A DNA stretch of 64,000 nt from positions 15,595,001 to 15,659,000 of the forward strand of contig NC_060105.1 of the NCBI RefSeq assembly GCF_021155765.1. Reading direction: 5' to 3'. Shown in pieces: positions 26,495-55,670 of this stretch (positions within the stretch are counted from its first letter, which is position 1; each line of letters opens with the position of its first letter). Under the pieces are notes generated by a model. The model did no database searches. It was not told the DNA's origin and saw nothing but the letters and a program-made list of their open reading frames with translations. The translations under genes and the position numbers were made by a program. This DNA comes from Diprion similis. Taxonomy: Eukaryota; Arthropoda; Insecta; Hymenoptera; Diprionidae.

Positions 26495-26665
26495 ACGGAC
26501 ACTTGACGACGTGCATCACATCTTCAAGTCTCACCTGCCTTCAGTCGCCTACAACCATGCTGTACCTTGCGTTTGTGTCCATCTTTGCTCTGAAAGTTCG
26601 TTGTAATCCTCAGTAATAAGTTGATCTTTCATCCCCGTACCCATTGCCCATCTACGAAAATCGAT

Positions 26666-27751
26666 ATGGCACCAACTAATGAGACCGGTTCATCTTTTTG
26701 GTCAGTAAAAGACGTCTTACCGACGATCCCTGCGTTCGATGGCAACAACATGCCTTTTGACCAATTTGTGGAACAATTGCGCCACGTGGAAACCCTCATT
26801 AGAGCTTCAGACAAAATGACCCTTGCTAAATTTGCACAATCAAAAATTACCGGTCCCGCTTCCCAATATTTAGTAGGCATTAATTGCAACGACGTCGAAG
26901 ACCTTATAACGGCCCTCAGCCGAGCATACCGTCCAGACATCCCCGTACGTCAATTATCAACTCAATTAGATAGAATTACCCAACAACCGCGTGAGCGCGT
27001 CATCGATTACTCATGCAGAATAAGAGTAATATCAAACGAAATAAGCAAAGCTGTCGAAAAAAAATACCCGCCAGACATAGCAAGCGCTTTGCTAAATGAC
27101 TTAAGAAAAGACACTGCTAGAACATTCATTAGAGGGCTAAGACCAGAATTAGAGTGGAGAATAGCTACCATCAGACCACTCCCTAGCTTTGATATCGCCG
27201 TCAGCGTCGCCGAAAGCGAGGAGACAGAGTTAAATAACCGTCAAATGCAACGCTTTGCACAATATTGTACTCCTCCTACACCTATGTATCCCCCAATTTC
27301 CGTCTCTGCCTGCCAAAACGATACCCCTCCACCTCAGGTGTCCATAACGCCCTCCCTCATCCCCCCTCTAATGTCATTGCCCACACCTGGTTACGCGCAT
27401 CAGCAAGCGCTCGGTGCAAGCACCCTCGCGCCTCCCGCAGATCGAACGAGGACCTCGCCGACTATTTGCCAATTCTGCAACCACCGAGGTCACCTGATCA
27501 CGAAATGCCATCGCCTGCAAAATACAAGATACTGCACCAAATGTCGCAGAATGGGCCACTTTTACAATAAGTGCAACCAACCCAGCAGAAGCGACAAACT
27601 GTACTGCGATAACTGTAAGCGCAGAGGCCACACATCAGACCAATGTAGATCTCCCCCGCGTGATAACCAAAACCATGTAAGTTCGAATCAAGATTTAAAC
27701 GGCAACACTGCCCGCGGGGAGAACGCGCCCGCGAGCTATGCAAACAACTAG
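26666..27751 (+). CDS. gag: Gag of the Gypsy element
   Basis: ATG at 26666 (MAPTNETGSS) to TAG at 27749-27751, 361 aa, intact. The N-terminal half is the capsid-like Gag region. A Pro-rich stretch follows at residues about 215-255. Then come three CX2CX4HX4C knuckles: CQFCNHRGHLITKC (about 27472), CTKCRRMGHFYNKC (about 27535) and CDNCKRRGHTSDQC (about 27604). Gag packages the element RNA into particles. The end overlaps pol by about 85 nt in the -1 frame. Confidence 0.88.
   Translation: MAPTNETGSSFWSVKDVLPTIPAFDGNNMPFDQFVEQLRHVETLIRASDKMTLAKFAQSKITGPASQYLVGINCNDVEDLITALSRAYRPDIPVRQLSTQLDRITQQPRERVIDYSCRIRVISNEISKAVEKKYPPDIASALLNDLRKDTARTFIRGLRPELEWRIATIRPLPSFDIAVSVAESEETELNNRQMQRFAQYCTPPTPMYPPISVSACQNDTPPPQVSITPSLIPPLMSLPTPGYAHQQALGASTLAPPADRTRTSPTICQFCNHRGHLITKCHRLQNTRYCTKCRRMGHFYNKCNQPSRSDKLYCDNCKRRGHTSDQCRSPPRDNQNHVSSNQDLNGNTARGENAPASYANN
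27694..27733 (+). promoter_or_regulatory. Programmed -1 frameshift signal (gag-pol)
   Basis: TTTAAAC at 27694-27700 is in the X XXY YYZ register of gag (GAT TTA AAC). Slipping one base back enters the pol frame, which is open from 27667. Twelve nt further, CGCGGG (27713-27718) can pair with CCCGCG (27728-27733) across a 9-nt loop. Frameshifting is the usual way errantiviruses make Gag-Pol. That it operates here is inference. Confidence 0.7.
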
Positions 27752-30669
27752 CGTTCCGATCCACAAGACACGTCTTAATAACAGCTTCAGCTGATCCCCC
27801 TTTAATTTCAATCGATACCCCTGAATTGACAAAGATCTCTAAATTTATTATCGACACCGGTGCAGACGTAAACTTAATCAAAGAAAGTTGCGTCAAGCCC
27901 TTCGTACGACGCACCACAGACGAACGTTTGACATTGACTGGTATAACGGACGAAAAGACGGAAACCATCGCAAAAACGGAGATATGATTTAATAACAACT
28001 CCAATACCTTTCACTTGGTCCCTGATTTATTCCCAGTCCCACATGACGGTATTTTAGGCCAACCCTTTTTACGAAAAGAGAAAGCAACTATCTCGTTCAA
28101 CTCAAACTCGGTAATGCTTGGACCCTCATTGCCAATCCACTTCAACAAAATCGAACAACCTCCTCCCGAAACCGCACGTGTTATCACAATACAGGCCCGC
28201 ACCGCGAAGGTCATCCCGATAATAGTTGCAAACCCAGATATCAAAGTAGGCTACCTTAAACACATTAATTTAGGCAACAATGTTCTTTGTGGTGGAGCAA
28301 TAGTTCGAAATCAGAACGGCATCGCTTATTCCTACGTGTTCAATTGCAACGAATCTGTCGTAGAGATAGCATCTCCAACGGCAACCCTGGAAGAATTCGA
28401 TGAACCACTGAGCACAGCCATGCCCGAAATTACGTCTACCCCGCCGAATAATGCCGACAAAAATAATGGACAAAAATCCCCCCTTCCTACCCAAACCACT
28501 TCTCATAATAATTCATTAATTCTTTCCACTAATAACCACATATCCCGTTCGCCCCATTACCCCCCCTTCAGCCCCCGCCAGCTCTCTGACCTCGCACATC
28601 GGCAACCTGAGCCCCGCATACCTGATAACAGTGCACCTCGTCGTGGCGCCGCAACAGTACTTTTGACTGACAGTAGGTCAGAGAGATTGGACACCCTAAA
28701 GAATAGTGTGTGCCTCGATCATCTAAATGACACCGGAAAACAATCAACACTCGACCTGCTAACAGAATTTAACCATCTTTTCTATCTCCCGGGAGATAAA
28801 TTAGGCCATACCAATCTAACCCATCACACTATCCCCACGACGGACGACACACCAATTCACACCAAACAATATCGTTTCCCAAAAATCCACAAAGATGAAA
28901 TCGAATCCCAGGTCAATAAACTCCTTCGGCAAGACCTTATTAAACATTCCGCATCTCCTTATAATTCTCCGGTTTGGATCGTCCCCAAAAAACCCGATAT
29001 TGACGGTAATAAACGATGGCGCATGGTGATCGACTACCGAAAGCTCAACGAAAAAACAATCGGCAACGCCTATCCAATGCCCGACATCACCGAAATTCTT
29101 GATCAACTTGGCTCAGCTAAATATTTCTCTACATTCGACCTTGCTTCCGGCTTTCATCAAATTCCCATGCACCCCGATCATAGTGCAAAAACTGCGTTTT
29201 CAACGCCCCGGGGTCACTATGAATTCTCCCGAATGCCCTTCGGACTTAAAAACGCCCCTGCCACGTTCCACAGGCTCATGGATCAAGTCCTGCTAGGCTT
29301 ACAAGGCAATGAGATGTTCGTATATTTGGATGACATAGTTATTTACGCTCGAAATTTACAAGAACATGAAATTAAATTCAGAAAATTGATGAAAAGACTA
29401 ACTGAAGCCGGCTTGACTCTGCAGCCAGACAAATGCCAATTTCTGCGCAAAGAAGTCGTTTACCTTGGTCACCTTATCACTGAGTCAGGAGTTAGACCTG
29501 ACCCCGGGAAGTTAGTAGCTGTGAAAGAATATCCTGTCCCGAAAAATCCCAAAAATGTTAAACAGTTCCTCGGTCTTTTGGGTTATTATCGCAGGTTTGT
29601 CCCAAATTTTGGGAAAATTGCAAAATGCCTCACTAATCTAACCAAGAAGGATACCCCTTTCAATTGGACATCCGAACACCAATCTGCCTTCGAAACCTTA
29701 CGTGATTGTTTATGCAAAGAGCCAATTCTCCAATACCCGGACTTCAGCAAGCCGTTTAAGCTCACTACCGACGCGTCAAAATTCGCCATCGGTGCGGTTC
29801 TGATTGTGAGTCAAGATAAGAACGGTGCCGACTTACCAATAGCGTACGCATCTCGAGCACTCAAATCCGCTGAATTAAACTACTCGGTGCCCGATAAAGA
29901 ATTTTTAGCCGCCTACTGGAGCATCAACCACTTCCGCCCCTACATCTATGGTCAGAAATTTACTTTAGTTACAGACCACGAGCCCCTCAAGTGGGTAAAA
30001 AGCGTTAAGAAGCCTAATTCTCGTTTATTACGATGGAGTCTAGAACTAGCAGAATACGATTTTGATACCAAACATAAATCGGGAAAAGCGAATGTCAACG
30101 CCGATGCTCTATCAAGAAACACGCCGCCTGACGTCGCACAAATCCTTCCTATAGATGCAAAACGCCCTCGTCCCACGACCGAATCCTCTGACAGCAGACC
30201 GAAAAAACGCACCAAAGAGACCCATCAGTACCCCCGACACCCTCGACAGACCACAGACGAATCTACGAACCCGGCCCCGCTAAAATGCCCAAAAATCTCA
30301 CAACCCACCTATCAAATGATATACCCCTCTGATTCTTCTGATCTCTCAGATGACGAATCCAGCGACAAAGAAACCGCAATGCTTTTTAAATCTCCTCCCT
30401 CCATCCCATGTCCGCACCCGGTTCATCCCTATCCGAAACGCCATCGAGAAACGAATTCCTCCACAAACCCTGGACCACGTAAGAGACCACAGCTGAGCTA
30501 CTTTTCGGATACTTCAACTAGCTCAGATGACCTACAAACCCCAGAAACGAACTCAGAAGTTGATGACATTAATTCGTCTACCGATTTACCTAGCTCCCCT
30601 CACATTCACAACCCTTCCGATAGCGATTTCCTTATAGAATGCGAGACGTTTCCTCTTATGCGTAATAAA

Positions 30670-31090
30670 TATATTAAAGAAATTAAAGCCGACCTACTAC
30701 AGCAAAAAGATAATTGAGCTCACTGTATATCAGCTGATTGCCAAATGTCAAAAGGAATCGCGTCACAGCTAAGAGAACGTAAATTCATAAATCGCGAACA
30801 ACTTAGAGAATTCTATCGGACTGTGACTGACGTTATTTCTACCACTCACGGGAACCGAAAAATTTACAACCTAGTGACAAAGCCAAAGTACAATGACAAA
30901 CCCTTACCACACGTTTTTTTTTATACCTTGGTCAACTTTAGGAAAACCTTGGAAGAAGATGGTGTAAGACCTGTCTCAATCCCGTTAATAGGCTGCGGAC
31001 TCGACAAACTAGAATGGAGCACGGTGCGCAAAATGATCCACTATATTTTCAAAGATTCAAAAATGAATATCACCGTTTGTCGCCTTGACC
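30670..31090 (+). pseudogene. Macro domain 1 (OARD1/TARG1, Poa1-like) within pol
   Basis: Same frame as pol. Motifs in order: IKEIKADLL (ADP-ribose-site Asp region), AHCISADC then MSKGIASQL (glycine-rich loop), YNLVTKPKY (Thr-Lys of the TARG1 site, codon 30880), IPLIGCGLD (30979-31005, catalytic Asp codon 31003) and a last strand NITVCRL. OARD1/TARG1-type macro domains remove ADP-ribose from proteins. The key Lys and Asp are kept. A TGA at 30715-30717 interrupts the second strand in this copy. The position, between RNase H and integrase, is where some retroviruses carry dUTPase. Function in the element is inference. Confidence 0.85.
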
Positions 31091-31589
31091 CTCCGCTTTC
31101 AACCCCCACACACCACGACGACACAACGGTGTCCGTTGATAACGCCTCACCTGACCCCATCCCTTCCACATCTGGTAACCCCGCTCTTCGTCTGCCGCGT
31201 AAGAAACCGCGACCTCCGACCAAATCAGTCGCACCTCTTGCGACCCCACCTCCCCTCCCAGCCACGAACGTCGTCATGCCCCCGCCTGTAGGACCCCCGC
31301 GTCGTGCTAAGAGACGCCCAACAGCTGTCCCCAGGCCAGTGAACTCCACTACTCACCCCCCTCTGCCTCCTCCCTCAGTACCCACACTGGCCTCTGATAA
31401 CGACACAGCTCCAACTCGCTCACGGATACCGAATACCATACATGCGCCTGACAATCCGACTCCGATATGGAAACCACACACTCTGACCATGACATTGATC
31501 CCAATGTCGACGACGATTTGACCGATACCTCCCACGATTTCACGAACTTTGTTGACAACTTGGACGACATACCGGTAGCTGACAATGTC

Positions 31590-32000
31590 AAAGACACCAA
31601 TGATGGTCTTTTGATGCTCAAAACCAATTATGCACACTTTATATCAACAGACTGCTCTTGGACTAAAGGCATACCATCACAACTTGCCCACGATAATATC
31701 GTTGACCCAGATATAGTTATGAGGCCCCGTCCACAGAAATTTGATATTATCGAATCCAAGCACAACAACCAACGGATCTTTACTCTAATACTAAATTCAA
31801 AAGAATCAGATAAAAGCAACCTATATGATATTTTTCAACTCTTGTCTAAACTGAAAACAGTCTCGACCGATTCAATTCCGAAATCCCTTGCTTTCTCAAT
31901 AACGGACGATAGTTTAGGTGGACTCGATCCTCGTGTTATCCGAAAACTCTTATCTTACCTTTTCGCAGACTTACAAATTCAAATCACGCTTTGCCGCAAC
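31590..32000 (+). pseudogene. Macro domain 2, degenerate, within pol
   Basis: In the integrase frame, preceded by a Pro-rich linker (31090-31560). It aligns with macro domain 1 at AHFISTDC and TKGIPSQL (from 31632), IFTLILN, and LGGLDPRVIRKLLSYLF before QITLCRN. The GCG loop and the catalytic surround are lost (DDSLGGLD instead of IGCGLD), so it probably no longer hydrolyses ADP-ribose. It looks like an internal duplication of domain 1 that diverged. A role in binding or structure is possible but unproven. Confidence 0.7.
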
Positions 32001-33201
32001 ACGACTGTCACCCCAGACGAATGTTTACGTAAAGAAATAATTAAAGAATGCCACGAATCATTAATTGGCAGTCATCAAGGCGTCACAAAAATATACAACC
32101 GCATTAGACAAAAATATTTTTGGCCGCACATGAAAGAACAAATCCAAGACTTCATAAGAACTTGTGAGAGTTGCCAAAGGAAGAAACTAGTAAGAGTAAA
32201 AACCAGGTTGCCGATGGTGATAACAGATACTCCTGCCGATGCATTCGACAAAGTAGCACCAGACATCGTTGGACCTCTCCCCCTTACTAAATCAAACAAC
32301 AAATACCTTTTGACGATACAATGCAAGTTGACGAAATTTCTGGACGCCATCCCTTTACCTGACGCCACTGCCAAAACAATGGGTGCAGCATTCGCGAAAG
32401 AATACATCACACGTTACGGTGCCCCTCGAGCAATACTTACAGACCAAGGACAAAATTTCATGAGCACAATCATTAAGCAACTTTGTAAACTCTTTGAAAT
32501 AAAACAAATTCGAACTGCAGCTCACCGCCCACAATCTAACGGATCGCTAGAACGCAGTCACCTTGTTCTCACCGAACACGTCAAGCATTACACGAATGCT
32601 GGTAAAGACTGGGATGAATACATCCGCTTTGCTATTTTCTGTTATAACACCGCGAAGCACGAAGGCACCAACTTCACTCCCCATCAGCTAATTTTCGGTT
32701 CCCATGCCAGACTTCCGACAGACGCGAACCCTGCCAGCGCTTACACCCGTTCCTACGATTCGTTCCTTCTAGATTTAATCTCCAACCTATCCACCATACA
32801 AAAAAACGCCGCGGCTAACCTCATTTTAGCAAAGCACCGTTCCAAGACGTACTACGACCGTCGTACCAATAACCAAAATTTCGAAGCAGCCCAAAAGGTC
32901 TATCTACTAAACGAAACCCGATCTAAATTTGACGACCACTATAAAGGAGCATATACGATCAAGCGCATAATTGACGATATCAATGCCGAAATTTTCATCA
33001 CTCCCCATAAGACCAAAATTGTCCATCTGAATAAACTCAAATTAGCACAGGAAGGAAGTGATTCAAATTAAACCACCTTTAGAAGTCAACAGCCGTATAT
33101 TATCAATCTACCCGTAACTGCATCATATTCCGCCTCATGCCCTCGGATATCATTGCAGGTGCAACGCCCTAAACAGCGAGACAGACGAATCATCCACTGT
33201 C

Positions 33202-35223
33202 ATGATTAAACAACTGGAACAGAACCCGGGAATCTTCTTCGAACAACTGCAAGACTTGCGTACATATAACGAAGAATGGACCCTGCTAAACTACGTGGAC
33301 CTCCAAAACCTATTCGACCGACTTGACCAAGCATCAGATTTCTTGAATATAATAGAGAAAAAGTGCTCTTTGGCCAAGAGCAATTGCCAGACCGGTAATC
33401 ACATCCCAATGTTGGCTAACAGAATAAAAACCATTAAAACATGTCAAAAAAGAATGGAATACCTAGTCGGCCATCGCACAGGCGAATCGACTCACTCTGA
33501 ACTTGCAAAGCTAGCCCACCATCGCAAAACACGAGGCGCGATTAACTTCATTGGTAGCATATCAAAATCTCTATTCGGTACCCTAGACGTAGAAGACGGA
33601 GAATATTACAATCAACAAATCGACAACCTTTACAATGACAGCAGACACTTAGCATCTCTCCTTAATAAACAGACTAATATCGTCCAGTCAACACTAGGCG
33701 CCTACAAAAAAGAACTCGACAGCATTATAAGCCACAACCACGAACGCGATACGTTACTTACGATTCTCTCGAATGATGCAGCTATCTCAAAAGCCTTAAT
33801 TGCTGACAATACCTTTAGAACAACCTTACTCAACCGACTAATGGACTTGGACCGACACTTGAACGAATACGAACTTGACCTGTACAGCCTATCAGACGCC
33901 ATTCTTTTCGCACAAAAAGGTATTGTCCACCCCAAAATTCTATCACCGAACCAAATTATTTATAGCCTTAAGCATATCCAGTCACTTAGACCGCAAATAG
34001 AATTCCCTATCCCACTAGACCCAAACTACGCCGAAGAATTAATTCGCATATCACAAATCGACATAGCGTATTCCAAGCCCAGGCTCCTTTACGCAATATC
34101 CATCCCACTGCTCAACCCCGACGCCTATAACCTATACAGACTGCTCCCCGTCCCTGTAAGACAGACGTACGACTCAACAAATAACAAATTCGCCTACATT
34201 CAACCTGGCAGTGATTACGTAGCTATAGCACTTAACCGAGCGTCATACTTCCAAATTTCAGAATCTAAATTCACTGGATGCGTTTTGTCTTTGGGTAAAT
34301 TCATATGCAAACTGACACAACCACTGTTTCACCCCTCAACTCACCGACTCTGTGAGGTTGGTCTTTTTCTAAACCCCTCTGAGAAAATTGCAAAAGAATG
34401 CGATATCAGACTGACCGCATTCGATGGTACCTACTGGACAGAACTATCTACATCCAATTCTTGGATTTTCTCGTCTTCCACTCCTGAAACTCTACATATT
34501 CTCTGCTCAAATGACCACACCTCCCGTGTGACGATCTCCGGCTCAGGAATTATCTCCCTGAATGACTTATGTACGGCTAGTACCTCTGAAGTAACCCTCA
34601 AAACCTCGAAACGTTCCCAATCTACCGAGACACTCTCCTACGTTCCCAAGGTTACCCTAGATTTAAGCGAAATATCCGTTAGTCTTGATTTTAATATTTC
34701 CACTGACTCATCCCTCGTCGCCATCCCCCCCTTGCGTGAACCTTCACACATTAACTCCCATGACCTTGCCATCGCTGGCGTTGCCCTGAATGACGTGCTC
34801 AAACGCTCAGCCGATCTAAGCACACACTATCGTACTCAAAGTAACATGCATCGCCTCACCACCAACCTCAGCTATGGCGGAATCGCCTTCGCGTCCCTCT
34901 TAGCAGTTTTCTTTTGCTACAAACTCTCATTATTTAGAAGAATCTCAAAAGTATACTCTTGCTGTAAATCCAGGCGAATACGCCACAACCTCGACTCACG
35001 TCATCCAAGACCCCAAATCCTTTCCCACCACGCCATTTCCCACCCTCACCTAGAAAATAGGTCATTCCCTAAGGACCTATCTCCTCGCACTTCGTCGCTG
35101 CCCCGAGCTCATTCAGAAATTGAAATGATGGAAATGTCCAAGCTACGACAACACCCACGTAAACTGCCCCGCGATCAGAGCCTTGACGCTAGTTCCGACT
35201 CCCTCTTCATCTGGACAGACTAA
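33202..35223 (+). CDS. env: Envelope fusion protein, baculovirus F/errantivirus type
   Basis: ORF of 673 aa from ATG 33202, open upstream to 33118. It starts directly with the F-protein ectodomain (FFEQLQDLRTYNEEW), with no signal peptide. A splice acceptor candidate (CATTGCAG, ending 33158) lies upstream, so translation probably relies on a spliced RNA, as in other errantiviruses. A furin-type basic site (HRKTR) is followed by a fusion-peptide-like INFIGSISKSLFGTLD at about residues 110-130. A transmembrane helix lies near residues 577-600 (IAFASLLAVFFCY), then a basic, Ser/Pro-rich cytoplasmic tail. The ORF is unbroken. Errantivirus F proteins allow cell-to-cell passage. Whether this one works is unknown. 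Confidence 0.88.
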   Translation: MIKQLEQNPGIFFEQLQDLRTYNEEWTLLNYVDLQNLFDRLDQASDFLNIIEKKCSLAKSNCQTGNHIPMLANRIKTIKTCQKRMEYLVGHRTGESTHSELAKLAHHRKTRGAINFIGSISKSLFGTLDVEDGEYYNQQIDNLYNDSRHLASLLNKQTNIVQSTLGAYKKELDSIISHNHERDTLLTILSNDAAISKALIADNTFRTTLLNRLMDLDRHLNEYELDLYSLSDAILFAQKGIVHPKILSPNQIIYSLKHIQSLRPQIEFPIPLDPNYAEELIRISQIDIAYSKPRLLYAISIPLLNPDAYNLYRLLPVPVRQTYDSTNNKFAYIQPGSDYVAIALNRASYFQISESKFTGCVLSLGKFICKLTQPLFHPSTHRLCEVGLFLNPSEKIAKECDIRLTAFDGTYWTELSTSNSWIFSSSTPETLHILCSNDHTSRVTISGSGIISLNDLCTASTSEVTLKTSKRSQSTETLSYVPKVTLDLSEISVSLDFNISTDSSLVAIPPLREPSHINSHDLAIAGVALNDVLKRSADLSTHYRTQSNMHRLTTNLSYGGIAFASLLAVFFCYKLSLFRRISKVYSCCKSRRIRHNLDSRHPRPQILSHHAISHPHLENRSFPKDLSPRTSSLPRAHSEIEMMEMSKLRQHPRKLPRDQSLDASSDSLFIWTD

Positions 35224-35329
35224 GCCCTCTACTACATATTTATAAGAACATATCCATTGTTATGCCCAAATACCATTCAATAAAAATGTCTCAAATAACG
35301 CTATTATAATAACCGTATACAATATCTAC

Positions 35330-35591
35330 AATCAAAACCCTAAAAATTATAATTTAACTATAATCGTATCTATACTATCTACAATTATACCCCTGACATT
35401 GTCATTTAACTTTGACTTGTATCTATAATATCTACAATCAAAACCCTCAAAATTATAATTTAACTATAATCGTATATATATTACCTACAATTATACCCCT
35501 GACATTGTCATTTAACTTTGATTGTATCTATATTATCTACAATCAAAACCCTAAAATTATAATTTAATTATAATTGTATCTTTATAATATG
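35330..35591. repeat. Tandem repeat, ~105-bp unit, 2.5 copies
   Basis: Units start at 35330, 35436 and 35541 with AATCAAAACCCT and contain CCCCTGACATTGTCATTTAA. It is AT-rich and lies in the 3' untranslated part of the Gypsy element between env and the LTR. Confidence 0.85.
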
Positions 35592-35815
35592 TAACTACTA
35601 CACACTTAAACTATAAGAACATACTTATTGTTACAAAAAAAAAAATATTTCTGCTAAAAATGTATACTAACCCGCTTAAACGCGCATTAACCCTAGACGC
35701 TATACTCTTTAAGGCAAACTATATTGTAATCTTTCGTAAGTGAGTCGATACATTACCCAAAAATTCGATTTTCCTTCGAACATTCGGCTCTGTACCCTCA
35801 CCGAATGTTCTTCCC

Positions 35816-35825
35816 GAAGGGGGGG
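35816..35825 (+). promoter_or_regulatory. Polypurine tract of the Gypsy element
   Basis: GAAGGGGGGG, two bases before the 3' LTR; the expected primer for plus-strand synthesis. Confidence 0.7.
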
Positions 35826-35827
35826 CG

Positions 35828-36264
35828 TGTTACGTCCGACGTCCCGCCTCACGTCTCTCCCACCTTCCTCGACGCTTGTCTTTACCTACCGTTCCCACAC
35901 TCCATATCTTGTCATCCTATTTCCATCTTGGCTTACACCACTCGCTATCGCCCTTACCTTGCCATTTCGATCCCCCTCTACCCTGTATCCTCGCTCATTT
36001 TCTCATGCAAAAGACTCACTCTCATTCCAACGCTCCTACCTCTTACATTCAACTTCAACTCCCGTTCCCCAAAACCGTTGCCTCAACTACTCCTCATCGA
36101 CTTCACTCAATTTCCAAATCAAAAGTTATAATCATTCTCTAATTACTGTTCTTTCCCTTCCGTTCCCTGAACGAAGACGTCGACGACTACGAACCAACAA
36201 AAATAGCACCCGAACCAACACCATCGGGTGGGTACATGGACTGCCGTCCCCCTGTACCGTAACA
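35828..36264 (+). repeat. 3' LTR of the Gypsy element
   Basis: 437 bp, TGTTACG at the start and CGTAACA at the end, pyrimidine-rich. Only the first 28 nt recur at the 5' end. Confidence 0.75.
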
Positions 36265-36420
36265 TTTTTTTAAATTTTTTTCTGAGATAAGGGATGTTTG
36301 AAAAAATCTAAAAAAAATATGAGGGTGTCTTTTAGGCTCAATGCGATCATATAAAAAAAAAATCCGAGAGGGTGAGGGTCACGGGTTTACACACCTGGGA
36401 TGGAATACCTCATATATTTG
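36265..36420. mobile_element. Right half of the MITE-like element
   Basis: Inverted, degenerate counterpart of 26271-26466 (shared TTTTTTCAAA blocks and ATTCCA end). Confidence 0.45.
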
Positions 36421-39517: not shown

Positions 39518-41495
39518 TACGGTGTCCGTTATTTACCAACTTGATTATTTTTGTTGCGACGCCCCGTAAATTTTCCGTTTCAAGCCCAAGACAAAATATC
39601 AGAGCAATATAAGCCCTTAATATTCATGGTAAACCTTGCCCCACAGACAATACATTTTCCATTTGAATTCCATGGGAGTTTGCCACTTTTTACAATTAAA
39701 TTTTTTTTCTTGAACACGTTAATATACAGCAATGTGAAAAACTCACTCTTATAGGAAATTGAATGCTCTACAACAAAGGTTTCTTATAATTTTTCGATTA
39801 ATTCACTCCTTCAAAAGTTATTCACGATTAAAGTTGAACTTATTGTAAATTTTCGGATTTTTTTGCTTTTACGGCAAAATTATTATTATTTAGATGAACT
39901 TTAGTGGTTTATTTCTGAAAATATATAATTGTGACGATATAAAGGCAAAAAATTGAACAAAAGTTGAAAAATGCATAAGTGAAATGAAATTCGTACCACC
40001 TGAGTATTACTATTTACATTTCTCGTGCCAAATCCGAGAAGGGCATATTACAGCAGTTAGATAGGGTTTTGCGGCAAAAGGGCGTATAAAAAAAAAATTT
40101 AATGTACTAACGCCAAAAGGGCGTATCTCAGGACATACACCCTTTTTAGGCACATTTGTTTGCCCAGAACCAAAAGGGTGTATAAAAAAACTTCAGGAAA
40201 TTGAACTTTAGTAGGGAGAGTGAAGAAGGGGTACAATGGATAAAAGCAAAAAAAAAATATAGGAAATGTATATATGTATGTATTTCGCAATATACATATG
40301 AGGCGTTCTCTCGAAGATCGACCTGTAACGACTTAGGTCATTTCTCGGGAGAACGTATTGATGCGTAGACAAGGTCACAAAGTATCTACATACCAAATTT
40401 TATAAGATTTAATCAATTTTTGAGCAAACTGTAAGTGTTTGAAACCACGCGCCTACCATATTATCGCCCGCGTAATCTCGGCTCCTGTGCTTCAGCCTCA
40501 AGCGTCAAGCAGTGTAGCCGTGTCGTTTACTTTTTTAAAGCGATATATCTTCTAAATATAAACTAATGGATACATCTACGATTAATTCCACGACAACTTC
40601 AACATCAACAGCACCCATGGTTTAAAAAGAAAATTTTAATTATTCCTAATAACTTTTTCTAATAAGTAAAATAATAAAATAACAATAAAAAATAACATTT
40701 TTTTTTTTTTATATCTTTCAATAAAATTATATAAACAAATATCTCTACTATTACATTTTTCTCGAGTTTTTATAGCTGTAAAACATATTTTTAGTAGTTC
40801 TCCCGAAAAACGACCGTGCTCCTGCATAAACTGGCGCTAAAAATATTGTTAAAAAATGTTTATTGAGGATTTTATGCTTTAAATCCATTATTCGACAGTA
40901 TAATGTTCGCAATAAATAAAAAAATTTGATAAGTTATATTTAACAGTGTGCAGTACAATGTTGAGTTTTCAAATCGCTTCTTCTCGAAACGACTAAATTG
41001 CACTCAGGTCGTTCTTCGAGATAACGCCTCATATATACATTTTTCAACTTTGTCTCAACATTTTACCTTAATATCAGCAGAATTATATATTTTCAGAAAT
41101 AAGCCACTAAATTTCATCTAAATAATAATAATTTTGCCGTAAAAATAAAAAAATCCGAAAATTTGCAATAATTTCAACTTTAACAGTGAATAACTTTTGA
41201 AGGAGTAAATTCAACAAAAAATCATAAGTGACCGTTTTTGTAGAGCATTCAATTTCCTATAAGATCATGTTTTTGTCATTGCTGTATGTTAACATGTTCA
41301 AGAAAAAAAAAATTCATTATAAACAGTGGCAAATTTCCATGTCGTTTGAATGGAAAATGTATTGTATTTTGGGCAAGGTTTAACATGAATATTAAGGGCT
41401 TATATTGCTCTGATATTTTGTTTTAGGCTGTAAACTAAACATTTACGGGGCGTTGCAAGAAAAATGATCAACTTGGTAAATAACGGACACCCTAG
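39518..41495. mobile_element. 2-kb long-inverted-repeat element inside the transposase gene
   Basis: Ends TACGGTGTCCGTTATTTACC and CTAGGGTGTCCGTTATTTAC (inverted). The arms are nearly complementary over about 450-500 bp and continue, after a 280-bp extra stretch on the left (39985-40265), in a second block (ATATGAGGCGTT...TCTCGAAGA). It can fold into one giant hairpin and has no coding sequence. The 7-bp duplication and the interrupted reading frame show it inserted after the surrounding transposon. Confidence 0.8.
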
Positions 41496-47903: not shown

Positions 47904-48077
47904 TGTTAGTATGTTATTAAAAACACATAATTAAGTCTTCATGACATTTTATTAAGGCAATACAAGTAATATATAATTAACAAGCTGCATCCATGTTAGC
48001 ACACGCTCTCGGCAATCTCTTGCTGCTACTTCGCATGCATACCAACCTTACTTCTAATAATTCCCTAGTCCTCAACA
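47904..48077 (-). repeat. 3' LTR of the Mag-like element
   Basis: Reads on the plus strand from TGTTAGTATG to CCTCAACA. The minus strand has AATAAA within it. Confidence 0.92.
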
Positions 48078-48092
48078 TCTCCCTTTTTTAAG

Positions 48093-51000
48093 TCAAGTTT
48101 CATAATCTCTGAATCTTACTGGAGGCTGCCTTAGTCTCTGAGGTCTCTCACCCCGATTCTGTTCATCACCAATCACAGCATTTGGCTCATTTCTCATTTG
48201 ATTTTCAATTATTGAATCATATATGCTTACATGAGTTCTACATGGGAACTCATTCTTTGATTCTCTTATATGTATTTTATTTCTACGATAAACCTGACCA
48301 GTTTCACTTTGTTGAACAAAGTACGACCTTGGGGCACTACTTTTACCTATTATCTTTGCAGGCTCCCACATCCTTCCTCTCTGAAGTAAAACACTTTGAT
48401 CTAGCTCTAGCTCAGGCCTTTCTTTACTTTTCTTATCAAACTTTTTCTTTACTATCTGTTGCTTATGCTTTAATTTTGTACATACTTTCTTATTATCTAT
48501 GACTTTAGGTTCTAATGATTTTTGGATTATTGGTAACTTCGTTTTCAACCTGCGATTCATCATCAATTCTGATGGGGTATAGTCAATTCCAGTTATTTTA
48601 GTGTTTCTATAATTAAGCAATGCTACATCTAAATCACAACCTTTTTTTAGTATCGCTTTTGCTATTTTTACACCACTCTCTGCAAATCCATTACTTTGTG
48701 GGTATCTCGGACTGCTATTAATTATCTGAAATTCAAATTCTTTTGCAAATTGTTTAAATGCATATGACGCATATGGCATGTTGTCCGCTATTAGCATATC
48801 AGGTATCCCATGGGTTGCAAAGCACACTTTAAATTTCTGTATTAATTCGTCAGCAGTTTTACCCGATGTTGGTATCACTTCAAGCCATTTTGAAAAATAA
48901 TCGAATATTATTAAGTAATTTTTTCCTGCATGTTCACACATGTCTGATGCGATTTTGGCAAAAGGTCTATCCAATATTTCATGATTGATGAGTGGTTTTT
49001 TTGTGTTATTTGGCAAATATCGCTCACAACTCTTACACTCGGATACAAACTCAATTATGTCTTTTGTCATTTCTGGCCAAAACAATGCCTCTTTCAGTCT
49101 TTCTGTGGTTTTATTTATCCCTACATGCCCTTCATGAGCTAATCTCATCATCTCTAATCTTAATTTACTTGGTACGATTAATCTATCCTTATACAACAAG
49201 ATATCCTCGACTAGACTAATTTCACTTTTATAGCTCTTGAATTTTTGGACTTCATCTGGTACTTTTGATGGCCATCCATCAATGCAGAATTTTTTTAGTA
49301 ATTTCAACACTGGTTCCTCTTCGATTCTTTTTTGGAACTCTGATTTTTTAGCATCCGTTATGTTCACTATTGCTTGGACATTGTGTATTACTTCTAGCAT
49401 TGTTGGATCGTCATCTATGACATCACTCAAATAATTTCTAGACAACAAGTCCGCCACATACATTTGCTTTCCTGGCATGTATTGCAAATTTATCAGATAT
49501 TTATTGAGTTTCGTTTTTATTCTTTGAAGCCTCGGTGACACTATGTCAGCTAATTTTTTATTCATTATCGCAACTAGCGGCTTATGGTCCGTCCACACAT
49601 TAACATGTCTCCCGTAGATGTAATAGTGAAATTTTTTGACAGCGAACCAAACCGCTAAGAACTCTTTTTCTATCTGAGCATAGTTTTTTTCTGCATCCGT
49701 TAAGCTCCTTGAAAAAAATGATACAGGTTTATTATTTTGTAACAGACAGCAACCCAAACCATCTTTTGATGCATCAGTTTGTATTGTTATTTGTTTTTTA
49801 CAATCAAAGTTTGACAGTACTGGCGCTCGCGTCAGTAATTGTTTCAACTCTGACAGTGCTTTTTCATGTTTACTGGTTCATGCAAAAACTACATCTTCTT
49901 TTAGTAAGTTTCTGAGTGGAGCAGATAGCTCTGACAATTTTGGCATGAAACTTCGGAAGTAATTGAACATCCCCATAATTTTTTGTAAGCCATTTTTGTC
50001 TGTTGGTGCTTTTAACTGTAAAATTGCTCTAATTCTCTCAGGATCTATTTCTATGCCTTGAGCTGAAAAAATGTGACCCAGATATTTAACCTTATCAACT
50101 TTATATTGTACTTTATTGGGGTTGAATCTAACATTTCTTTCTCTTGCTCTGTTTAACACTTTCTCTAAAATTTTATCATGTTCTTCCTCACTTGTTCCTG
50201 CAATTAACAAGTCATCAAAGTAAATTATTACACCCTTTATGTCCCCAAAATTTTCCTGATTTATTTTTTGAAATAGTTCCGGTGCCATATTTAACCCAAA
50301 AGGCATTCTGCAAAATTTATAGTATCCAAACGGTGAGCTGAATGTGCACACATCACTTGACTTTTCATCCAATTCTACATGGTAATACCCATCTTTTAAA
50401 TCTAGAACTGTAAACCAAGTTTTTCCTGTTAGTTTTGAACAAACTTCTTCAACCGTTGGTATTAGAAAGTATTCTCGCTTTATATATTTGTTTAAATCTG
50501 CTGGATCTAAACACACCCTCAGTGTTTTATTTTGTTTCTCCACAATAACTAAATTACTTGCCCACTCAACTTGGCCTGTAACTTTTTGTATGATGCCTCT
50601 AGATTCCAAATCATCTAAAGTTTGTTTCAGTTTTTCCTTTATTGCTAACGGGACTCTACGAGGCGCCCTAACAACTGGTATTGCATCTTCTACCAGTTTG
50701 ATTGCACATTTTTTATTGAACTTACCTATTCCTTCAAAGAGATCTCGGTGTCTATTAATAAGTCCATTTTTTTCTTTATATTCTACATTTTCAATCCTTT
50801 TTACTAACCCTAGCTGAGTACAGGACTCTAGTCCTAGCAACGGTGTCGAATCATTATCAACTATTACAAAATTCAGACATTTTCTTGTTCCTTTGACTTC
50901 GCAAATTAATTTTACAGTTCCAAGTGGTGACCATTTCGTACCTCCATACGCTTCTAATACTATTTTGGTTTTTTCAATTTTTTCTTTACCACCCAGCGAC

Positions 51001-51910
51001 TCTAACACTTGTTTAGGTATTATATTTACCTGTGCGCCTGTGTCTAACTTAAATTTTATAATCTTGTCACTTACTTTTAGATTTTCATACCACGATAACG
51101 ACTCTACTTTCGATATTACATTTATCACAGACTTGACTAGCAGCGTCTCTATCTCGTCACTGTTTTCTTCGTCCGCCTCTTCAAGCTCCTGAACGATCTT
51201 CACTCTGCAAGCGACTTTCCAGTGATTTAATTTCCCGCATCGAGCACACTTTTTTCCAAATGCTGGGCACTGGTTGACTCCATGTTTGGTTTGACATCTC
51301 GTGCATAAAAATGTGTTATGTTTTTCTTTTGACTTTTTGACGTACTCTTTTTTCTTGACAACACTGACTTTATTTTCTTCCTGCACAATTTTAACTTGAT
51401 CCCTTGTTACTTCACAGGATCTACAGATATTTATTACCTTCTCTAAGGTCACCTCCTCTAACCCGATGAGTCGTTCCTGCAATCCTCTGTCGCAATTCCG
51501 AGTACAATTCGGTCCCGAAGCATCTCATCTTCACTATTTATAAATTCACATTTTTTTTTAATTTTTTTTAGGTCAGTAACAAAGTGATCAAATGGCTCAT
51601 TTTCTTCTTGTTTTCGGTTGTAGAACAGGAATCTTTCGTAAATAATATTTTTCTTTGGGTTCACATATTTCTCAAATTCTTGTACTACGCGGTTGAATTC
51701 TTTTCTTTCTTCATTTGACAGTTTAAAATTATTGAAGATATCAATTCCTTCTTCACCCATAAAATTCAGAAGTAACGCTACCTTAACCTCATCTGTTGAG
51801 TTATTTTTTTCCGCAGCTAGCAAATAAATTTCAAAATGTTGTTTAAATTTCTTAAAATTTTCCAATATGTTGCCTTCAAATTTACATGGACCCGGTATTC
51901 TCGCGTCCAT
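48093..51910 (-). pseudogene. Gag-Pol of the Mag-like element (two lesions)
   Basis: Gag starts at ATG 51910 (MDARIPGPCKFEGN). A one-base loss near 51480 moves the frame into the rest. Then two Cys-rich knuckles (CTRCQTKHGVNQC, CARCGKLNHWKVAC), protease (FKLDTGAQVNIIP), RT (PFGYYKFCRMPFGL, IIYFDDLL), and a TGA at 49880-49878 where the family has Trp. RNase H follows (TIQTDASKDGLG, WTDHKPL), then integrase (HEGHVGINKTTERL, CKSCERY, IADNMPYAS, SPRYPQSNGFAESG), ending at 48093. The enzymes copy and insert the element; this copy cannot make a full product. Confidence 0.92.
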
Positions 51911-51998
51911 CTTGTTGTGGAATCACGTGTATCGTTGACGCTCAGTTACTGTAGACAATTTGATGCACTATTCCTTTCTTTTTTTAAACTTTTGACTT

Positions 51999-52017
51999 CA
52001 CTTGACCGACTGCGCCA
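51999..52017 (-). promoter_or_regulatory. Primer-binding site of the Mag-like element
   Basis: Directly inside the 5' LTR the minus strand reads TGGCGCAGTCGGTCAAGTG, as expected for pairing with a tRNA 3' end (TGG first). A Ser- or Met-type tRNA is plausible but not checked. Confidence 0.6.
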
Positions 52018-52191
52018 TGTTAGTATGTTATTAAAAACACATAATTAAGTCTTCATGACATTTTATTAAGGCAATACAAGTAATATATAATTAACAAGCT
52101 GCATCCATGTTAGCACACGCTCTCGGCAATCTCTTGCTGCTACTTCGCATGCATACCAACCTTACTTCTAATAATTCCCTAGTCCTCAACA
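52018..52191 (-). repeat. 5' LTR of the Mag-like element
   Basis: No difference from 47904-48077 found by eye. Confidence 0.92.
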
Positions 52192-52196
52192 TGTGC
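52192..52196. repeat. Target-site duplication TGTGC (right)
   Basis: Partner of 47899-47903. Confidence 0.9.
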
Positions 52197-53345: not shown

Positions 53346-55670
53346 GTGTCGGTTACAGGAATCTATACGCAGAACTCTCCTTGTATTACTACTTTCAATG
53401 TATTTGTTGCATACAACAAAGGAGCGGCGACAGCAGATGAAGTAACTATCTACTTTTCAAGAGATCCAGCGTCGTGGCCAAAAATCGATGAAACCTTGCG
53501 TTCATACTGGGTGCAAAAAGGACCATCATCCTGTCAAAATAGAGACTGTGACTTCAATGGGTCGGCACGTAGTTATGAAGAAGGTAGCAAGACGAAGATA
53601 AGAACTTTACAGAAATCACTTTTCAAACGACGGCTACAGAATGGTGAAACTGTGGATCGCGAATGGCTTTTATATTCACCGTCGGAAGGACATGTTTATT
53701 ATTTTGTTTGCCGTTTGTTCGCCTCTGAAGTAAGTCCCTTTTCGTTGGGGGGGTTCAACGATTGGAAGCATGCAGCTACTCGTGTTGCAGAGCACGAGCA
53801 CAGTACTCGGCATATGAAGTGCCTGTTGACATATCATTCGCGTAAAAAGGAGACTGGTTGTATCGATACAGAATTGCTATCGCAGTTGCACGATGAACAA
53901 AATTATTGGGAAGAGGTCTTGAAAAGAGTAGTTGCAGTCGTAAAACTTCTCGCATCGCGAGGTCTCGCATTCCGAGGTGATAATCAAACCATAGGATCAC
54001 CTCGCAACGGCAATTACTTAGGTATACTAGAACTTTTCGGTCAGTTTGATCCATTCATTGCTAAATATATCAGCACCCATGCGAATAAAGGGAAAGGTAC
54101 AACTTCGTACTTATCAGCCAGCACTTGTGAGGAGTTTATAGAGCTGATGAGTGAAAAAGTAGATATGTACATTGTTGCTGAATTAAGAGAAGCAAAATAT
54201 TACTCTCTCAGCGTAGATTCCACTCCTGACATCACCCACACAGATCAGTTGACATTTATTGTACGGTATTTAAATAATAGCGGTCCAATCGAGAGATTTC
54301 TAGAGTTCATTTCAATCCACGAACATGGAGCCGAGTATATGGCAGATGTAATTGTTAACTTTTTGCGAGATAATCACATTTCCTTAGCTGATTGCCGTGG
54401 TCAGTCGTATGATAATGCGTCCAATATGGCAGGTCGTTATGCGGGATTGCAAGCAAAGATTAGAGATCAGAACAAATTTGCTGAATTCGTACCATGTGCA
54501 GGTCACTCCTTGAACTTGGTAGGCGTTAAGGCAGCCGAATGTAATTCGCATATGACATCGTATTTTTCATATCTGCAACGATTATATACATTTTATTCTG
54601 CTTCACCATATCGTTGGCAGAATTTAGTCTCTGTATTAGGTCCAGAACATAAAGTCATGAAAGCACCATCTACTACGCGGTGGTCAGCTCGTGCTGATGC
54701 AGTGAAAGCTTTTTCTAAGGGGTATAATCAAGTTCGCATAGCTCTTGACGCCTTGTCAAACAATGAACGACAGTCAAGTGAAACGAGACATGAAGCTAAA
54801 TGCATCTGCAAAAAAATGGATAAAATTGAAATTGCTTTTCTGACTGTGGTGTGGAATGATCTCTTGACTCGCATTCACGAAACAAACTTGACTTTGCAGA
54901 AGGAAGATATGAATCTATCTTTAGCAGTAATTCTGATCAAATCTCTGGAGGCATATATTCAAGATTGTAGAGATAAATTTGCTGCTGACTTGGATAAAGC
55001 AATGGTTTTAGTAATGAGGGATTCGAATTCCAATCAGAGAATTAGGCAACGAAGTGTTAGACTCACGCGCTTCGAGGGACAAGCTGAGCACGTGGCACTC
55101 GATGAAAATCAAAAATTAAAGATTGAAATGTTTCTTCCTATCATTGATTCTATCATTCATAATCTGACAGTACGCCGCAAAGCCTATGATCGATTTAACG
55201 ATAATTTCGGATTCTTCCTGACTCCACGAACCATGAACATTGATCAAATCGCTGATCACTGTGAAAGTCTCGCACACTTTTATCATGAGGATAGAAACAA
55301 AGAAAGTTTAATAGCAGAGTGCGTTCAACTCAAACACTATTTGCACCAGATTGGAGATCTAGAGGGAGCGATATCTATGTCTGATCTATACAGACAAATA
55401 AAAACCGACGGTTTAGAAACCCTGTTTCCTAACGTAGAAATATCACTTCGTATATTTCTGTGTATGATGGTTACGAACTGTAGTGGCGAGCGCTCATTTT
55501 CGAAACTTAAACTAATCAAAAATGAAATTCGAAACACAATGACGCAAAAAAGATTAAATAACCTTTCTCTGCTTAGTATTGAGTCTGATTTAGTAGACAT
55601 CATTGATTTTAAAAATCTTATTACCGATTTTGCCGCGAAAAAATGCAGAAGAAAGGTAAAAAATATGTGA
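53346..55670 (+). CDS. hAT-family transposase, long intact ORF
   Basis: 774 codons without a stop. The N-terminal TTF-type zinc finger is at about residues 35-160 (YFSRDPASWPKID, NGETVDREWLLYS, HVYYFVCRLF, AEHEHSTRHM). The DUF4371-like/RNase H fold follows at about 200-480 (YYSLSVDSTPDITHTDQL with the first catalytic Asp; RGQSYDNASNMAG; FVPCAGHSLNLV), and the hAT dimerisation end at about 690-745 (CSGERSFSKLKLIKNEI). The frame starts after TAA 53343-53345 with GTG. No early in-frame ATG exists before residue about 157. An ATGTCG|GTAAGT just upstream (53336) hints at a spliced first exon. hAT transposases cut and paste their element. Close relatives are annotated as zinc finger MYM-type protein 1-like. 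Confidence 0.88.
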   Translation: MSVTGIYTQNSPCITTFNVFVAYNKGAATADEVTIYFSRDPASWPKIDETLRSYWVQKGPSSCQNRDCDFNGSARSYEEGSKTKIRTLQKSLFKRRLQNGETVDREWLLYSPSEGHVYYFVCRLFASEVSPFSLGGFNDWKHAATRVAEHEHSTRHMKCLLTYHSRKKETGCIDTELLSQLHDEQNYWEEVLKRVVAVVKLLASRGLAFRGDNQTIGSPRNGNYLGILELFGQFDPFIAKYISTHANKGKGTTSYLSASTCEEFIELMSEKVDMYIVAELREAKYYSLSVDSTPDITHTDQLTFIVRYLNNSGPIERFLEFISIHEHGAEYMADVIVNFLRDNHISLADCRGQSYDNASNMAGRYAGLQAKIRDQNKFAEFVPCAGHSLNLVGVKAAECNSHMTSYFSYLQRLYTFYSASPYRWQNLVSVLGPEHKVMKAPSTTRWSARADAVKAFSKGYNQVRIALDALSNNERQSSETRHEAKCICKKMDKIEIAFLTVVWNDLLTRIHETNLTLQKEDMNLSLAVILIKSLEAYIQDCRDKFAADLDKAMVLVMRDSNSNQRIRQRSVRLTRFEGQAEHVALDENQKLKIEMFLPIIDSIIHNLTVRRKAYDRFNDNFGFFLTPRTMNIDQIADHCESLAHFYHEDRNKESLIAECVQLKHYLHQIGDLEGAISMSDLYRQIKTDGLETLFPNVEISLRIFLCMMVTNCSGERSFSKLKLIKNEIRNTMTQKRLNNLSLLSIESDLVDIIDFKNLITDFAAKKCRRKVKNM

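Follow-up and report, generated by a model that had tools for sequence, protein, structure and literature searches.

The conflict between RNA viruses and their hosts is known to extend to ADP-ribosylation. A dUTPase is encoded between RNase H and integrase in equine infectious anaemia virus (EIAV) and feline immunodeficiency virus (FIV). The element described here, a Gypsy-type retroelement of Diprion similis (Hymenoptera, Diprionidae), bears a captured host-like enzyme in the same slot of Pol; unlike in EIAV and FIV, the enzyme is of another class (a macro domain, M1), more than one capture is probable, and a second macro domain (M2) is present. It occupies about 26505 to 36266 (+ strand) of the window, the whole stretch of 64,000 nucleotides that was analysed (NCBI RefSeq assembly GCF_021155765.1, contig NC_060105.1, positions 15,595,001 to 15,659,000 of the forward strand). 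L and P numbers: loci and proteins. C2 and C14: contigs. A to E and G: families of elements, A being the family of the window. RT, reverse transcriptase; LTR, long terminal repeat; env-F, envelope of the Baculovirus F protein type.

The insect env-F Gypsy elements (errantiviruses, insect endogenous retroviruses) have the same gag-like open reading frame (ORF), RT-RNase H-integrase order, env-F and LTRs, and share the TG..CA LTR ends and the 4-bp duplication, which was seen here in one copy. In the present element, unlike these, RNase H and integrase are separated by about 1.9 kb that includes two macro domains. No Gypsy element with a macro domain, and no conflict over ADP-ribosylation involving Gypsy-type retroelements, was named in a literature search of partial coverage, which does not establish that none is in print. 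Words starting with "macro" are absent from the main text of PMC12992720, which examined insect retroviruses in 2025.

Macro-domain reading frames in fish epsilon-like retroviruses were reportedly described by Basta et al. in 2009. According to PMC4977317, a review, fish retroviruses occasionally carry such frames; these are also retroelements with a macro-domain gene, but there the gene is an additional reading frame of vertebrate retroviruses, unlike the Pol-embedded M1. Alphavirus macrodomains (e.g. Chikungunya nsP3) have the same macro fold inside a virus replication polyprotein. Their fold match to M1 is weaker, and viral macrodomains are placed under the MacroD heading in another review (PMC7050489), versus the TARG1 type here.

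The closest cellular relative is TARG1/OARD1 (C6orf130). In the latter review, the TARG1 substrates are mono-ADP-ribosylated acidic residues, O-acetyl-ADP-ribose and ADP-ribose phosphoesters at nucleic-acid ends, catalysis uses Lys84 and residue 125, given as Glu125, and TARG1 and DarG both belong to the ALC1-like class, which includes readers and erasers (PMC7050489). M1 resembles TARG1 in sequence (about 35% identity), in fold and in its aligned Lys and acidic partner. Unlike TARG1, it is embedded in a retroelement Pol, in tandem with an eroded second domain, and its activity is a prediction.

The macro domains and their element

M1 is confirmed as a macro domain of the TARG1/OARD1 type. Such a domain had been placed at 30670..31090 of a Gypsy pol, between RNase H and integrase, by an initial annotation made from the sequence alone; both position and slot are right. 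Translation of 30670-31090 gives an N-terminal strand, a TGA stop and then AHCISADCQMSKGIA...NLVTK...LIGCGLDKLEW. The piece 30718-31093 matches human OARD1/TARG1 (phmmer E=1.9e-17, residues 1-121 of 125), which is also the top PDB sequence match, and a profile built from cellular and metagenomic homologues only finds M1 at 3e-45. These E values rule out a chance likeness to macro domains. With Pfam Macro alone, the window M1 is weak and under cut-off (E=0.18).

When M1 is aligned with 45 homologous proteins, 17 columns are invariant, including T54-K55 and G92-C93-G94-L95-D96; the annotation had singled out the Thr-Lys and the GCGLD Asp, with a glycine-rich loop. K55 and D96 align with the Lys and Asp of the human OARD1 chain and are taken by us to be TARG1 residues 84 and 125 (offset of +6). 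Both are retained in all ten M1 rows inspected, from five families and from Neodiprion. The AlphaFold2 model of M1 has a predicted local distance difference test score of 85.5, its input alignment consisting itself of OARD1 relatives. Foldseek ranks TARG1 first among PDB matches to this model (TM 0.90, root-mean-square deviation 1.5), then DarG, with alphavirus macrodomains far lower (E 7e-5 to 1e-4 versus 3e-10). Assignment of M1 to the viral MacroD type was rejected: TARG1 and DarG, both ALC1-like, outrank the alphavirus macrodomains by fold, and TARG1 is best by sequence. M1 is likely to be a hydrolase.

The features of the element are as follows (all + strand).

26621..27751: gag-like ORF (Pfam Retrotrans_gag E=0.002, under cut-off)
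28984..29472: reverse transcriptase, RVT_1 (Pfam 5.1e-38)
29740..30057: RNase H, RT_RNaseH (Pfam 3.8e-37)
30670..31090: M1, TARG1/OARD1-type macro domain (N-terminal strand 30670-30714, TGA 30715-30717, remainder from 30718)
31091..31600: Pro/Ser/Thr/Arg-rich low-complexity linker joining M1 to M2 (ORF list)
31602..32000 (approx.): M2, second, eroded macro domain, directly 5' of the integrase zinc domain
32016..32531: integrase (Pfam; H2C2 zinc domain 32016-32186, 4.6e-22; rve core 32262-32531, 5.1e-08)
33202..35223: envelope, Baculovirus F protein family (Pfam PF12259, 3.4e-54)
35318..35573: short repeats between env and 3' LTR, spacing 52-53 nt
35828..36266: 3' LTR (96.2% to the 442-bp LTR of another copy)

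The order of RT, RNase H and integrase, with an F-type env, is errantivirus-like (Pfam). About 1.9 kb of the interval from RNase H to integrase is extra and corresponds to M1, linker and M2. No 5' LTR or LTR pair of this element was found within the window; homology to the family copy L057 begins at 26505 (97.4% over 26505-27154, blastn).

M2 is absent from the initial annotation. It is 30% identical to M1 (E=4e-19, single comparison) and is found by the cellular-homologue profile at E=8.9e-10 in the window and at about 1e-12 in copies L003 and L012. A search of the M2 sequence against the PDB gave nothing relevant. The AlphaFold model of M2 has macro topology, with TARG1 as top Foldseek match (TM 0.84); its input alignment, of OARD1 relatives and M1, favours a macro fold. 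The GCGLD loop is intact in none of seven M2 rows, the Lys is kept in three and the Asp in four. The window M2 lacks the catalytic pair, with Asn and Gly at the aligned Lys and Asp positions. M2 adjoins the integrase zinc domain in families A, B, C, D and E and in L065, L066 and L068.

Copies and related families

Further copies were searched for in the same genome (269 Mb, 60 contigs). The M1 query gave at least 151 matches (150 of 226 candidates scored). For RT, 150 candidates were likewise scored, and places with fewer than 152 of 163 residues are excluded from the 41 considered here. An A-family M1 is located 1.2-2.6 kb downstream of 40 of these 41 places (at least 152 of 163 residues, at least 88%). 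A single-copy insertion is thereby ruled out; the annotation had named the lack of the segment in other copies as the outcome that would speak against it. In eight copies, a frame of 1801-1802 codons runs through M1 without interruption. Among the best 20 copies fetched, the window included, eight have no stop across the 1125 codons surrounding M1, and the Lys, Asp and Gly inspected are conserved in every one of the 20.

The window copy is dead, because an in-frame TGA (30715-30717) just 5' of M1 parts it from RNase H and the open frame shifts inside the linker, before M2, parting M1 from integrase. The placing of M1 in the pol frame therefore holds for the family, through the eight other copies with unbroken frames, and fails for this copy. 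That M1 is a host gene or processed pseudogene landed by chance in one dead element would agree with a copy broken around M1. This origin is hardly conceivable: it is refuted by the 40 of 41 RT places, the eight long frames and a relative in Neodiprion.

Families A, B and D have moved recently, because the LTRs of single copies are nearly identical. In the A copy at C14:2.89 Mb, the two LTRs of 442 bp are 99.1% identical and have TG..CA ends, and CAGA was read by eye on either side of the element; LTR matches reach 99.9% over 1818 bp in one B copy and 99.8% over 1271 bp in one D copy.

M1 and an integrase-adjacent second domain are also found in families B (1841-codon frames), E (1589), C (broken) and D (up to 1724). 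The family D M1 exceeds the Pfam Macro cut-off (37.9 bits versus 22), as does that of L040, a relative of D (24 bits). Two family C copies (L035/L055 and L039/L056) have an extra macro-like piece upstream of RT (E 5.5e-6 to 3.8e-10), following a weak protease match (E=0.052), which gives up to three macro domains per element. In family G, a TARG1-like domain follows a protease match in L048. In L051 such a domain is preceded by a weak protease match (RVP, E=0.00094, narrowly missing the cut-off); L093 and L094 resemble it by eye. L051 was considered as an exon of the host OARD1; as the weak RVP match precedes the domain, it is more likely an element relic. L048 (C14:3854300-3860300) has one open frame in the order weak M2, integrase, macro, protease, macro; this is two elements fused together or else one of unusual structure.

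M2 is found by the cellular profile at E 6e-6 or better in A, B, C, D, E, L065, L066, L068 and L090, the last four having the M2 type only (E 4e-12 to 1e-10). It is weak in L067 (E 0.0086), L089 (0.0053) and L048 (0.19; below 1e-3 only with an iterated profile).

The RT tree comprises 25 rows, 18 of which fall into a single group (81/96) made up of the window family, Neodiprion, B/E, C, D, G and the M2-only families. In this group, L085 lies outside the macro scan, and the Neodiprion gene model ends before the place of M2. M2, at least, is found in most families of this RT clade. The data support a clade of Gypsy elements whose Pol has TARG1-class domains, one of them eroded and beside the integrase. 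Outside the group are sister families (60-63% RT identity) and three outgroup rows. In the sisters L070 and L091 and the outgroups L071 and L072, integrase is reached about 0.7-1.0 kb past the RT end (by hand, from hit coordinates), so that about 0.1-0.4 kb is left after RNase H, assuming equal RNase H length. No macro match under E 0.1 was found in these four, the stretch of L091 excluding the spacer itself. The broken sister stretch L069, which has no integrase match and a best macro E of 0.36, is not judgeable. A second Gypsy element in the window (47904-52192, minus strand) has about 107 residues from RNase H to integrase and no Macro match at E 0.001. Its ends bear 175-bp repeats that are 100% identical.

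Spread beyond this genome is represented by one named match, P0121, a predicted protein of 1218 residues from the sawfly Neodiprion virginianus, with weak protease, RT, RNase H and macro domains. Its macro domain is 57% identical to M1 and under the Pfam Macro cut-off (18.9 bits, E=0.0015). The protein search that found P0121 retained five of 191 candidates; each of the remaining four has DNA ligase domains together with an OARD1-like domain.

Origins of the macro domains

Domain trees were built with IQ-TREE from 120 columns, protein rows being thinned at 75% identity and element rows at 97%. The first tree includes 36 element or viral rows and 40 others, most of the latter random draws; partial rows were excluded. 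The later data sets 1-3 exclude two M2 sequences, that of D and the weak one of L048. Set 2 adds the host OARD1 candidates, two tandem two-exon genes at L092 (C2:13508900-13512900; 63% identical over 118 columns). Set 3 uses another alignment and excludes all M2 rows and P0018. The viral rows are L021, L024, L026, L027, L030 and L031 in the first tree, and L026, L027 and L031 in sets 1 and 2. AU: approximately unbiased test.

The macro domain has probably been captured at least twice, on the evidence of these trees, because a single origin of the D M1 and the window M1 is rejected: D constrained with A and C gives AU p=0.00043 (set 1), 5e-5 (set 2) and 0.0025 (set 3). The A/C M1 together with M2 form one side of the domain tree (86/89). 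The M1 of B/E may join A/C (p 0.289 in set 1; 90/91 in the M2-free set 3). The M1 of family D is placed among animal OARD1 proteins, and D, G and the host OARD1 group together at 94/95 (set 2) and 97/98 (set 3), the order between D and G being unsettled by the tree (p 0.476, set 2). The older captured lineage would thus comprise the A/C M1 and M2, perhaps with the B/E M1; its origin from an animal is compatible with the data (p 0.193, set 3). The younger one, seen in family D (and G), would stem from the OARD1 lineage of the host itself. Gene capture, proposed in the annotation, is borne out and extended to at least two origins, one of them grouping with the host OARD1.

A single capture of all element domains, the likeness of the D M1 to host OARD1 being due to slow evolution or to an artefact of the tree, is very unlikely. 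It draws on weaknesses of the trees, which count against the scheme of two lineages: they have 120 columns, weak inner branches and long M2 branches, and the groups were named after the first tree was seen. The fit of B/E with A/C also favours it, and D with B/E as one clade is compatible (p 0.115, set 1). It is contradicted by the rejection of D with A/C in three data sets, one of them without M2 rows, and by that of all M1 as one clade (0.0029 in set 1; 0.0064 in set 3); all element domains of set 1 as one clade are rejected as well (0.0048). L067, whose RT (L076) groups with D, has no M1 in a stretch that begins at the RNase H end, and L089 (RT: L084) has none either, though its stretch misses the first 0.3 kb; both speak against one capture.

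TARG1-like macro genes are found in 12 IMG/VR viral contigs of 12.9 to 249 kb, some near-duplicates (L021-L032). They were considered as a source of the element domains (33-37% identity) and rejected: those placed in the trees lie apart from the element domains. An OARD1-like macro domain is also found in DNA ligase or LIG3-BRCT proteins (P0122-P0125, P0005, P0016), a possible donor. In P0123 and P0124 (the latter being salmon louse DNA ligase 3), it is N-terminal to a C-terminal BRCT domain.

Constraint, possible function and remaining features of the window

Ratios of nonsynonymous to synonymous change (dN/dS) were computed by the Nei-Gojobori method. For M1 they are 0.071 between B and E, 0.172 and 0.176 between the D copies L044 and L042, respectively, and L046, and 0.23-0.28 among three C copies. 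Three comparisons of D with L040 gave two saturated results without a value and one of 0.131, at dS 2.7. M2 has 0.173 between B and E. Core values are 0.014 (RT, B-E) and 0.032 (D RNase H, L044-L046). Among the eight unbroken A copies, the corresponding ratio of differences (pN/pS) is 0.22 for RNase H and spacer, 0.46 for M1, 0.67 for the linker, 0.47 for M2 and 0.16 for integrase. Over longer times, then, M1 is under constraint (dN/dS 0.07-0.28 between diverged copies), to a lesser degree than the core enzymes.

The preferred reading is that family A is a multicopy env-F Gypsy element with the Pol order RT, RNase H, M1, linker, M2, integrase, that M1 is a captured TARG1-class hydrolase acting for the element, and that M2 is its eroded relative. 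Taken as a whole, this is considered rather probable. We infer that M1 is enzymatically active, packaged and beneficial to the element, its substrate being among those of TARG1. M1 would be made with Pol, freed with or left attached to the Pol products, and so enter the particle. There its target would be mono-ADP-ribose, stripped either from the acidic residues of proteins, whether of the element or of the host, or from phosphate ends of element RNA or cDNA. Reverse transcription and integration could thereby continue where enzymes of the poly(ADP-ribose) polymerase (PARP) type mark foreign nucleoprotein; the role of M1 would then be to counter host ADP-ribosylation. M2 would descend from an old duplication or be a relative, its active site eroded; retained beside the integrase, it would probably serve the integrase precursor in binding or as a structural component.

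Several observations weigh against this reading. The window copy is dead, and the broken copies L033 and L041 have an altered GCGLD loop. M1 is dispensable at least in L065, L066, L068 and L067, which have M2 only; conversely, no M2 was found by profile in L040. Within family A, M1 is looser than RNase H with spacer and integrase, as judged on a small number of differences (1.75 synonymous and 3.04 nonsynonymous per pair). The dN/dS of M1 is higher in close pairs (0.40 for L044-L042, 0.55 for the window and L003), and that of M2 is 0.77 in one C pair, with few changes.

Some of these observations would also suit macro domains that serve to space out a long Pol precursor or to help it fold, their TARG1 likeness being ancestry only. 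The catalytic loop of M2 is lost, the constraint on linker and M1 within family A is below that on integrase, and some families have no M1. The two catalytic residues kept in all ten M1 rows, the constraint on M1 between diverged copies and the renewed capture of this class of domain, odd for a spacer, make such a role quite improbable.

A chromodomain is thought to steer the integrases of chromoviruses. By a comparable device, M1 and M2 could be readers that bind ADP-ribose on chromatin and direct the integration complex to ADP-ribosylated sites. This is unlikely, though less unlikely than a spacer role. It would agree with the place of M2 against the integrase zinc domain, with an M2 whose active site is eroded and whose fold is predicted to be kept, and with the presence of readers in the ALC1-like class (PMC7050489). 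For a pure reader, however, both catalytic residues of M1 would be needless, and M2 has lost loop residues that are possibly needed for binding.

With M1 read as a hydrolase, a broader proposal can be made tentatively, as a possibility short of probable. This lineage of insect-type endogenous retroviruses would keep TARG1-class hydrolases as a standing part of Pol and would have recaptured the host OARD1 at least once, also in the slot between protease and RT; an older copy would now be a module linked to the integrase, and the whole would be the footprint of a long conflict over ADP-ribosylation, with retroelement proteins or nucleic acids being tagged by hosts and cleared by the elements. 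Macro domains in related families, with at least one apparently separate capture, hint at a struggle over the ADP-ribose tagging of mobile elements. That a likely ADP-ribosyl hydrolase is maintained in Pol across families, with an apparent second capture from the host, raises concrete questions: whether retrotransposition is restricted by PARP-type enzymes, what substrate they mark, and whether ADP-ribose is added to the ends of retroelement RNA or cDNA. The M1 domains of the elements also form a diverse natural collection of TARG1-type domains.

Two other features of the window are recorded. A hAT transposase-like ORF (DUF4371, Dimer_Tnp_hAT) is located at 53346-55670. Inverted repeats of 191 and 282 nt, 86-87% complementary and 1.0-1.6 kb apart, are found at 39518-41494 and resemble those of a terminal-inverted-repeat element.
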